A stretch of 59,955 nucleotides of DNA from contig JAKMDW010000131.1 of NCBI GenBank assembly GCA_022426245.1, positions 1 through 59,955 on the forward strand, given 5' to 3'. The notes under the pieces were generated by a model, which was not told the DNA's origin, made no database searches, and worked only from the letters and a program-made list of their open reading frames with translations. Shown in pieces: positions 51,821 to 55,137 of this stretch. The stretch is from Alphaproteobacteria bacterium. GTDB taxonomy: Bacteria; Pseudomonadota; Alphaproteobacteria; RS24. The translations under genes and the position numbers were made by a program. The first letter of the stretch is position 1. The number at the start of each line of letters is the position of its first letter.

Positions 51821-52504
51821 ATGAAACTACTCGGAGCCCCGCTATCTCCTTTTGTGCGCAAGGCGGTTATTGTCGCGGCGGAAAAAAATCTCGATTATGA
51901 ATATGACCCACGCCCCAGCCCGTTGGGCTGGACGGAGGATTTTGAAAAAATAAATCCCCTGAAGCGGATACCGGCTTTGCTGCCTGACCCTGACAATATC
52001 ACTTATGCGATTAATGACAGTTCAGCGATTTGCGCTTATTTCGAAAAGCTGCAACCCGAACCGGCACTATATCCAAGCGATGCAGAAGCCTATGGTCGCG
52101 CTTTGTGGCTGGAAGAGGCGGCCGATACTGACTTGGCCAATAAGATCGGCATGTTGGTTTTCCGTCCTGTCTTCTTTAACTTGGCTGCGGGCAAAGCCGC
52201 TGATATTGACGGTGCCAAAGACGGGTTTGAAAAACTGTCAGAACTATTACTGCCTTATCTTGAAAGCCAAATTGGCGATGCTGACTGGTTTGCCGGCGAC
52301 ATGTTCTCGATTGCCGATATTGCCGTAGCCTCGCAATTAATGAATTTGAATATGGTCGGTTTCGCTGTGCCGGAAGACCGCTTCCCGAATTTGCGCGCCC
52401 ATTATGAACGTTGCATTGAGCGTCCCTCGATTGCCGCTTGCATTGAGGGCAATGAAAAATTCATCAGCAAATCCGGATTTAAAATTGAGCGCGTTATCAG
52501 TTAG
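51821..52504 (+). CDS. Glutathione S-transferase family protein
   Basis: MKLLGAPLSPFVRKAVIVAAEKNLDYEYD..., INPLKRIPALLPDP, INDSSAICAYFEKL. Confidence 0.92.
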   Translation: MKLLGAPLSPFVRKAVIVAAEKNLDYEYDPRPSPLGWTEDFEKINPLKRIPALLPDPDNITYAINDSSAICAYFEKLQPEPALYPSDAEAYGRALWLEEAADTDLANKIGMLVFRPVFFNLAAGKAADIDGAKDGFEKLSELLLPYLESQIGDADWFAGDMFSIADIAVASQLMNLNMVGFAVPEDRFPNLRAHYERCIERPSIAACIEGNEKFISKSGFKIERVIS

Positions 52505-52517
52505 GTGTTTGAGCTTG

Positions 52518-52532
52518 GCGCAAAATTTGCGC
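52518..52532. promoter_or_regulatory. Perfect 15-bp palindrome upstream of the DUF1538-PII operon (candidate operator)
   Basis: GCGCAAA-A-TTTGCGC; 41 nt separate its end from ATG 52574. Confidence 0.5.
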
Positions 52533-52573
52533 TAAAGTCTGGATTACAGGCATCGATTCGAAGGAGAAGCCTT

Positions 52574-54307
52574 ATGTTGCGTTATTCGTCAGTGCTGCGA
52601 TCTAATGCGGTGCGGCATCGTGAGATCAGTTACAATGCACTGACCCCAAAACCGGTGAGCGGAAAAAAAGATAGTCTTAAACCGCAGCGTTTACGTCTCG
52701 GTTTTGAGCAGACAATGGCGCTGCTTATGCCTTATTCAGGCGTGCGCGTGCTGGAGCAAATGAAGGCGGTTATTCCGCTGGCGCTCTATTTGGTGCTGTT
52801 TCAACTTATTATTCTGCGCCAACCCGTCGACGCGGCGCTGCTGCTGGTCGGTGGTTTGTCGGCCGTGATTGTCGGCCTCGCTTTGTTTATGGAGGGGCTT
52901 AATATCGGGCTGATGCCGTTTGGCACGCTGATTGGCGATAAGCTGCCGCGCAAGGCCAGCATGCCCGTCATGTTGTTGATTATTGCCGCATTGGGCGTCG
53001 GGGTGACCTTTGCCGAACCGGCGATTGGCGCATTGCAGGCTTTTGGGGCGTCGGTTGATGTCACCCGCGCGCCATATCTTTATGAGATATTGAACAATTG
53101 GACATTGCCGCTCGTGCTGCTGGTCGGTGCGGGGGTTGGCTTGGCGGCTGTGCTGGGCACATTGCGCTTTGTGAATGGCTGGTCGCTAAAGCCGATGATT
53201 TACATCGCCGTTGGCCTGACCCTGTGCCTCACGCTGGTGGTCTATGCCAATAATGACTTGCGGGCTGTTTTGGGTCTGGCTTGGGATTGCGGGGCGGTGA
53301 CAACCGGTCCGGTAACCGTGCCATTGGTTTTGTCGCTAGGTATCGGCATTGCCAATTCGACGGGTCAAAGCAGCGATAACTCGCTCTCAGGCTTTGGTGT
53401 CGTTACGCTGGCCTCGCTGTTCCCAATCATTGCGGTGCTATTGCTGTCGCTTTATGTCAGCACGCAAATCAGTGCCGAGCAGATTGTCGTCGCGGCGGCC
53501 ACGGCCAGCAGCGCGGGCGAAGTTGTGCAGCAAAGCATGTGGGATGTATCGCCCTTGCAGGAAATTGTGCTGGGCGTGCGCGCGATTGCGCCGCTGGTTT
53601 TGTTCTTGATGTTTGTGCTGTTTATTGTGCTGCGCGAGGGGCTGGCCAATAAGCTGTTCACGGCTTATGGGCTGGTGCTGTCGATTGTCGGCATGTGCGT
53701 GTTTAATATCGGGCTGACTTATGGTCTGGGCGCGATTGGCGCCCAAACCGGTGCTGTTTTGCCGGCCGCCTTTATGGAGGTTTCCATCAGCGATATTTCA
53801 CCGATTTATTCCGCCGCTCTGGGGTTGGTGCTGGTGATTTTATTCGCCTGGTTTATGGGCTTCGGCGCGACACTGGCCGAACCGGCATTGAATGCGCTGG
53901 GTCTCACCGTGCAGAACCTGACCAATGGTGCGTTTAAAAAATCCATGCTGATGTATTCGGTTGCAACCGGTGTGGCTTTCGGCATCGCTTTGGGCATGGC
54001 GAAAATCTTATTTGAGATTGACCTCGCCATGCTGCTGATACCGCTTTATCTCATCGCGCTTGCGCTGACTTATTTCTCAACCGAGGAATTCGTCAATGTG
54101 GCATGGGATAGCGCCGGTGTAACCACCGGGCCGGTTACCGTGCCGCTCGTGCTGGCAATGGGGTTAGGGCTTGGCAATGCGGTCTCAGCCATTGAGGGCT
54201 TTGGTATTTTGAGCATGGCCAGTATCGGGCCGATTATCGCCGTATTGGGTATGGGCCAATATATTCGTTTTAAGCAATCGCGCGCGATTGCTCCTGAGGG
54301 AAATTAA
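52574..54307 (+). CDS. DUF1538 multi-pass membrane protein with two tandem DUF1538 repeats
   Basis: Internal duplication: AWDCGAVTTGPVTVPLVLSLGIGIAN / AWDSAGVTTGPVTVPLVLAMGLGLGN, and GVTFAEPAIGAL / GATLAEPALNAL. Start refined to ATG 52574 with AAGGAGAA upstream. Confidence 0.88.
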   Translation: MLRYSSVLRSNAVRHREISYNALTPKPVSGKKDSLKPQRLRLGFEQTMALLMPYSGVRVLEQMKAVIPLALYLVLFQLIILRQPVDAALLLVGGLSAVIVGLALFMEGLNIGLMPFGTLIGDKLPRKASMPVMLLIIAALGVGVTFAEPAIGALQAFGASVDVTRAPYLYEILNNWTLPLVLLVGAGVGLAAVLGTLRFVNGWSLKPMIYIAVGLTLCLTLVVYANNDLRAVLGLAWDCGAVTTGPVTVPLVLSLGIGIANSTGQSSDNSLSGFGVVTLASLFPIIAVLLLSLYVSTQISAEQIVVAAATASSAGEVVQQSMWDVSPLQEIVLGVRAIAPLVLFLMFVLFIVLREGLANKLFTAYGLVLSIVGMCVFNIGLTYGLGAIGAQTGAVLPAAFMEVSISDISPIYSAALGLVLVILFAWFMGFGATLAEPALNALGLTVQNLTNGAFKKSMLMYSVATGVAFGIALGMAKILFEIDLAMLLIPLYLIALALTYFSTEEFVNVAWDSAGVTTGPVTVPLVLAMGLGLGNAVSAIEGFGILSMASIGPIIAVLGMGQYIRFKQSRAIAPEGN

Positions 54308-54317
54308 AGGAGGCATC

Positions 54318-54764
54318 ATGTCCGACAGACAGATTACCTATCTCACCGACGCTTTGATTATCACCTGCATTGTGCAGGCCAGTCATGCTGATGATGTTGT
54401 GAAAGCGGCGCAAAATGTGGGCGCACAAGGTGCGACGGTCACTTATGCGCGTGGCACAGGCGTGCGCGAACGCATGGGGCTGATGGGCGTGACCATTGAT
54501 GAACAAAAAGAAATGGTGCGCATCATTGTCTCGCAAGAGCAATCGGACCGTGTCTTTGAAGCCATGTATCTGGCTGGCGAGCTTGATAAGCCGGGCATGG
54601 GCATCATGTTCATGAATAAGCTGGACCGTATCGCCACTTATATTCCAGATGAAGTTTTGGCCGAAGCTTCTGCGCCTAAAGCGAAAGCAAAAGCGAAAGC
54701 AAAGGCGGCGCCCAAAAAACGCAAAACGGCGACCCGTCGCCCTGCTAAGAAGGTCGGCAAATGA
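54318..54764 (+). CDS. P-II family signalling protein with basic Lys/Ala-rich C-terminal tail
   Basis: VVKAAQNVGAQGATVTYARGTGVRER...MVRIIVSQEQSDRVFEAMYLAGELDKPGMGIMFMNKLDR, then APKAKAKAKAKAAPKKRKTATRRPAKKVGK. Start refined to ATG 54318 after AAAGGAGG. Confidence 0.82.
   Translation: MSDRQITYLTDALIITCIVQASHADDVVKAAQNVGAQGATVTYARGTGVRERMGLMGVTIDEQKEMVRIIVSQEQSDRVFEAMYLAGELDKPGMGIMFMNKLDRIATYIPDEVLAEASAPKAKAKAKAKAAPKKRKTATRRPAKKVGK
54678..54701 (+). repeat. 12-bp tandem repeat (AAAGCGAAAGCA x2) encoding the K-A-K-A tail of the PII protein
   Basis: Two exact consecutive copies read directly, followed by a partial copy. Confidence 0.85.
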
Positions 54765-55048
54765 TTACCGAGATTGGCGCATTTATGCATAAGGGCGAGG
54801 GCTTGCGGCTGATGAATGAGCTGCATGGCGATAAGAAAATTCTGGGCATTTATGTCGAAGCAGGACGGACAGAAGACCTGTTTGCTTTTCGCGAGTTTGG
54901 CTCGGCATCTGAGAATGATATCGTCACTATTTTGGTGGAAGCGCGCCACGCGACCAAAATCTTTGATTTGGTTTGCAGCAAAATGGGGCTGGATAGCCCC
55001 CAAAGCGGCATGGTTTTCCAAATGCCACTGCATACGCAGCCTGCATAG
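54761..55048 (+). CDS. Small PII-like protein (second paralog), ATGA-coupled to the upstream PII gene
   Basis: MITEIGAFMHKGEGLRLMNELHGDKKILGIYVEAGRTEDLFAFREFGSASENDIVTILVEARHATKIFDLVCSKMGLDSPQSGMVFQMPL; beta-alpha-beta pattern and C-terminal GMVFQMPL parallel to GMGIMFMNKLD. Confidence 0.6.
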   Translation: MITEIGAFMHKGEGLRLMNELHGDKKILGIYVEAGRTEDLFAFREFGSASENDIVTILVEARHATKIFDLVCSKMGLDSPQSGMVFQMPLHTQPA

Positions 55049-55094
55049 GCGGTTCGCCTAATTAAATGCTTCAAAATCGCCGCCTTTAAGCGGC
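55046..55094 (+). terminator. Two consecutive hairpins downstream of the PII-like gene (putative operon end)
   Basis: TAGGCG-GTT-CGCCTA (55046-55060) and GCCGC-CTTTAA-GCGGC (55079-55094), followed by T-rich TGGTTTTCACGTTTTT. Confidence 0.5.
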
Positions 55095-55137
55095 TGGTTT
55101 TCACGTTTTTCGTCCTATATTCAGCTTCAAACAGGAG

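Follow-up and report, generated by a model that had tools for sequence, protein, structure and literature searches.

A fused UmpAB-type membrane protein encoded together with two PII-like proteins: a recurrent bacterial gene trio

Results and Discussion

Three tightly packed genes on the same strand were found in the window, the whole 59,955-nt stretch of an Alphaproteobacteria bacterium analyzed here (contig JAKMDW010000131.1). They encode a membrane protein, a PII protein and a second, smaller PII-like protein (Table 1). Dozens of genomes, from two or more bacterial phyla, have the same trio. With a probability of roughly 0.55, we favour the reading that the membrane protein works as a single-chain monovalent-cation/proton antiporter of the UmpAB type and that one or both of the PII-like proteins gate it from the cytosol.

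Table 1. Features of the trio, in window positions.
Feature	Coordinates	Strand	Evidence
Fused UmpA-UmpB-type membrane protein, 577 aa	52574..54307	+	PF07556 twice; UmpA/UmpB are the best NCBIfam profiles
First PII protein, 148 aa	54318..54764	+	PF00543 (42.3 bits); PDB P-II chains by profile
Second PII-like protein, 95 aa	54761..55048	+	hhalign, AF2, Foldseek; outside Pfam/NCBIfam
Possible weak intrinsic terminator hairpin	55073..55101	+	Not convincingly above shuffled sequence

Gene organization

The original prediction described a DUF1538 reading frame, a 10-nt gap, a PII frame and an ATGA overlap into a third frame, all of which we could confirm in the sequence. The first frame can be opened at a GTG at position 52505, but the ATG at 52574 is preferred as the probable start since it is preceded by GAAGGAG and the alignments of its relatives begin there. 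The TAA of this gene (54305–54307) is followed by 10 nt containing a second Shine-Dalgarno sequence, AAAGGAGG, and then by the ATG of the PII gene at 54318, whose own TGA overlaps with the ATG of the second PII-like gene at 54761–54764. The three genes appear to form one translationally coupled operon and would be co-transcribed. Hairpins had also been predicted to close the unit; stretches 3′ of the last stop can indeed fold (55046–55060 and 55073–55101), but with a z score of −1.78 and a weak T-run a terminator is possible rather than established.

The trio is immediately preceded by a glutathione-S-transferase-like gene (51821–52504) in the window and its nearest relatives only. This gene was not counted in the unit because this adjacency is limited to the closest relatives (L004–L011), and a downstream FMO-like gene, present only in L003, L005–L007 and L009–L011, was rejected as well.

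The membrane protein

The product of the first gene contains two DUF1538 domains (Pfam PF07556; E = 2.4e-103, 344 bits against a cut-off of 22.6), and its best NCBIfam profiles are UmpA for residues 60–293 and UmpB for residues 335–570 (NF041627/NF041628). It scores below the equivalog cut-offs of both profiles (210.8 vs. 490 and 163.2 vs. 500), which are very strict and are likewise failed by split UmpA- and UmpB-type proteins. The protein had been predicted to be an uncharacterised transporter, a description that has to be revised as the DUF1538 family includes an experimentally studied antiporter, the two-gene UmpAB of Halomonas zhaodongensis, which carries out Na+(Li+, K+)/H+ antiport in E. 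coli KNabc if umpA and umpB are expressed together (PMC5484666). The literature search turned up no other biochemical study of the family. UmpAB and the window protein share PF07556 and the A-then-B order of homologous halves, whereas in the window A and B are one polypeptide that belongs to a long-fused clade, carries an extra N-terminal segment and has two PII partners; the published work on UmpAB does not mention PII (PMC5484666).

Homologues of the window protein were 56–96% identical to it, and its DUF1538 halves share only ~32% identity with split proteins of the UmpA/UmpB type. The window and split forms have AEP and AxDSGGVTT-type motifs, with their acidic residues, in all halves; in the window protein these residues are E148, D238, E436 and D512. 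The protein is a probable sodium/potassium-proton exchanger. An N-terminal ISYN-x-LTPKP-type segment, with variants, was found only in the long-fused clade, where 58 of 81 proteins have the strict SYN-x-LTPKP pattern and most others a recognisable variant, as opposed to 0/16 split or short-fused proteins. This segment and the second PII occur together, and only in that clade. In the PDB comparison no solved structure was matched by sequence, and a Foldseek search with a moderate-quality model of the fused protein (pLDDT 77, pTM 0.77) found nothing alike among solved structures (best E = 0.036, TM < 0.2), which may mean that the fold has no solved member or that the model is too poor.

The two PII-like proteins

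The first PII matches PF00543 with 42.3 bits against a cut-off of 25, and PF04350, the accession originally named, is not the P-II family; a profile search against P-II chains in the PDB gave E values down to 3e-6. It has a divergent PII core with a short T-loop, a Lys-rich C-terminal tail and an N-terminal extension that is found in 75/75 first-PII sequences and is about 12 residues long in the window protein. Neither the uridylylation motif Y-[KR]-G-[AS]-[AE]-Y nor the C-terminal signature with G-D-G-K was found in any of these 75 sequences, and the first PII is without the uridylylation tyrosine. None of the PII classes has equivalents of the ATP-phosphate residues K90, R101 and R103, which are replaced mostly by I/F, T and I, respectively; the canonical GlnB of the window's genome (L113) has all three along with both P-II signature motifs. 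Since the GlnB positions G35, G37, K58 and G89 are kept in the first PII, and Q39 is changed to Arg in 17 of the 19 sequences sampled, it is plausible that the protein binds a ligand at an altered site in the same GlnB-type cleft. The C-terminal tail of the window protein (54660–54764, KAKAKAKAKAAPKKRKTATRRPAKKVGK) is Lys/Ala-rich and resembles histone H1, and such Lys-rich tails, of variable length, are found only in its nearest relatives (L003–L011).

The second PII-like protein has no match in Pfam or NCBIfam, PF00543 included. Its profile had no significant match among PDB sequences, the best being S100-A9 at E = 0.09, which we took as chance, and the P-II entry 9p1x at 0.11, and for this reason we turned to fold and profile–profile comparison. 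Profile matches between the two PII-like proteins were reciprocal, with hhalign giving a probability of 96.3% (E = 1.8e-9). The AF2 model (pLDDT 85.2) has the order beta-alpha-beta-beta-alpha-beta, and AF2, Foldseek and hhalign together describe a ferredoxin-like fold in which a loop joins strands 2 and 3. GlnK leads the Foldseek matches (GlnK1, E = 1e-4, TM 0.71), among which are also CutA chains and the NrtBCD-PII complex 8wm7. A distant orthologue in L143 passes the Pfam P-II cut-off with 32.4 bits. Within the window's clade the protein carries the motif GR(S/T)xDLFxxxxFGxxxE, and it has no conserved Cys or His. For both PII-like proteins, the nearest sequences of solved structure include chain H of PDB 9p1x, an entry with 12 chains of a 105-aa P-II protein. 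The earlier suggestion that the third frame is PII-like was borne out by these comparisons, which identify 54761–55048 as a second PII-fold protein.

Distribution and history of the trio

To describe the linkage we used 80 long-fused loci from GTDB species genomes and seven further loci (L140–L146). A PII gene lies directly downstream of long-fused umpAB in 79 of the 80, the exception being a contig that ends there, and both PII genes were present at every locus with enough downstream sequence (84/84), covering Alphaproteobacteria, Gammaproteobacteria and Nitrospinota, though many of these loci are closely related and the counts are therefore not independent events. In a long-fused locus from Verrucomicrobiota (L079) the sequence ends after the first PII. 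The survey shows a recurrent linkage, the absence of which would have counted against the original prediction, and two PII-like partners for one membrane protein, originally thought to be unusual, are the rule in the long-fused clade. The open frame of the first PII begins further upstream in L116, L140 and L142.

A single PII accompanies split umpAB at 37 of 42 distinct loci, in a set picked mainly by best DUF1538 score rather than at random and with same-genome loci among L083–L112 and L115–L139 counted once, and short-fused umpAB in 5/5 genomes. The remaining five split pairs (L137, L138, L139, L147 and L148) have no recognisable downstream PII; some of these genomes hold several DUF1538 copies. 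In L126 (1–4214) two systems sit side by side, a short-fused umpAB with its PII being directly followed by another PII and a split umpAB. Overall, the adjacency of umpAB and PII is kept over three phyla. With two P-II genes in the 1.8 Mb of the window's genome, simple arithmetic gives an expectation that a P-II gene would lie by chance in the 1 kb downstream of ~0.1% of its genes, and given that the trio is found in dozens of genomes, the arrangement is far beyond chance.

The long-fused membrane proteins form a separate clade (support 100/100) with a long branch between them and the split proteins, and the second PIIs form a single clade (support 100/99). The two-PII arrangement therefore looks ancient as judged from these trees, although the exact point of origin of the second PII is not fixed because the tree rows are short and the branches long. 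Both the transporter tree and the PII tree set the long-fused lineage apart from the split and short-fused ones, as expected of partners that are inherited together.

Proposed function and comparison with known systems

PII-superfamily proteins encoded beside the membrane transporter that they gate are known from GlnK-AmtB, and SbtB is a divergent PII-like regulator encoded with its own transporter, SbtA. The window resembles GlnK-AmtB in having a PII-superfamily gene beside a membrane transporter, presumed here to be gated, but the transporter is unrelated, there are two PII-like proteins instead of one, and the first PII differs from GlnK in its shortened T-loop without the uridylylation Tyr and in the absence of the ATP-phosphate residues. 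It differs from SbtB-SbtA in its transporter family, in the presence of a second PII and in that its first protein belongs to Pfam's P-II family. PMC7726332, citing Sant'Anna et al. 2009, describes PII-NG, a non-canonical PII that adjoins the CzcABC cation/proton antiport system (Geobacter GSU2134-2137); a non-canonical PII by a presumed system of this kind is also what the window has, although its partner is a DUF1538 protein and not an RND pump. All components of the trio belong to known superfamilies. We found no papers joining UmpAB, DUF1538 or PF07556 with PII in a search that left aside bioRxiv preprints and most subscription papers, and the same search gave no earlier description of the conserved linkage of UmpAB with PII, of the two PII genes in tandem or of the second PII family.

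Gating by PII from the cytosol is the reading best supported by the conserved adjacency, the parallel lineage split and the known PII-transporter pairs (GlnK-AmtB, NrtBCD-PII) together. The long-fused protein would work as a single-chain antiporter for monovalent cations and protons, with an ion path that may be formed by one acidic pair in each homologous half (E148 with D238, and E436 with D512). The PII-like proteins would be cytosolic trimers, or might form a mixed trimer, and would dock on the transporter from its cytosolic side, perhaps at the clade-specific N-terminal segment, and a small bound ligand would set whether they open or close transport. The first PII would be the ancestral partner and the second a diverged duplicate that may add a second signal, serve as a structural or antagonistic subunit, or take part in a mixed complex. 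A PII of its own, if Halomonas UmpAB has one, is not strictly needed, as subclones with umpAB alone are active in E. coli (PMC5484666). This observation, the five split umpAB loci with no PII and the missing ATP-phosphate residues speak against the favoured reading. A more specific version, in which the diverged pair acts together as a heteromeric or two-signal switch on an antiporter of unsolved fold and couples cation and pH homeostasis directly to a signal from a metabolite or nucleotide, is tentative.

It is possible, if rather doubtful, that the long-fused protein is PII-gated but moves another substrate, which could be K+ alone, a divalent metal or a small anion, and is not a Na+/H+ antiporter. 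The long branch that separates it from the split proteins, the ~32% identity and the scores far below the equivalog cut-offs all mean that its substrate may differ from that of UmpAB, and there is no solved fold from which a substrate could be inferred; however, the AEP and AxDSGGVTT-type motifs and their acidic residues are common to the window and split halves. We consider it improbable that the PII-like proteins make no contact with the transporter and are co-expressed sensors that act elsewhere, for instance on metabolic enzymes or on transcription, under the ion or pH conditions that need the antiporter. In favour of such a role, nucleic acid or another anionic partner could be bound by the Lys-rich tail that the first PII has in the window, but this tail is missing from most relatives, and the adjacency of umpAB and PII over three phyla, with the split, short-fused and long-fused forms each having its own PII lineage, is the pattern known for GlnK-AmtB.

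More improbable still is a role for one or both of the PII-like proteins as CutA- or PII-NG-type binders of metals or cations, which would buffer or directly sense the transported ion. Such a role would fit the CutA chains matched by the second protein and the PII-NG genes reported beside CzcABC efflux systems, but the absence of conserved Cys or His in the second protein and a neighbour that is UmpAB and not an RND efflux pump speak against it.

The transporters for which PII control is established carry nutrients, among them ammonium, nitrate and bicarbonate. If gating of the antiporter by the PII-like proteins is correct, a conserved PII pair acting on an antiporter of monovalent cations and protons would bring salt and pH homeostasis, in marine bacteria and others, within the range of PII signalling. 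A transporter family with a single biochemical study to its name would in that case gain a likely regulator, and a PII-like family that still lacks a Pfam model would be defined. Since the trio recurs across phyla, these results suggest a so far unreported use of PII-family sensors in ion and pH balance.
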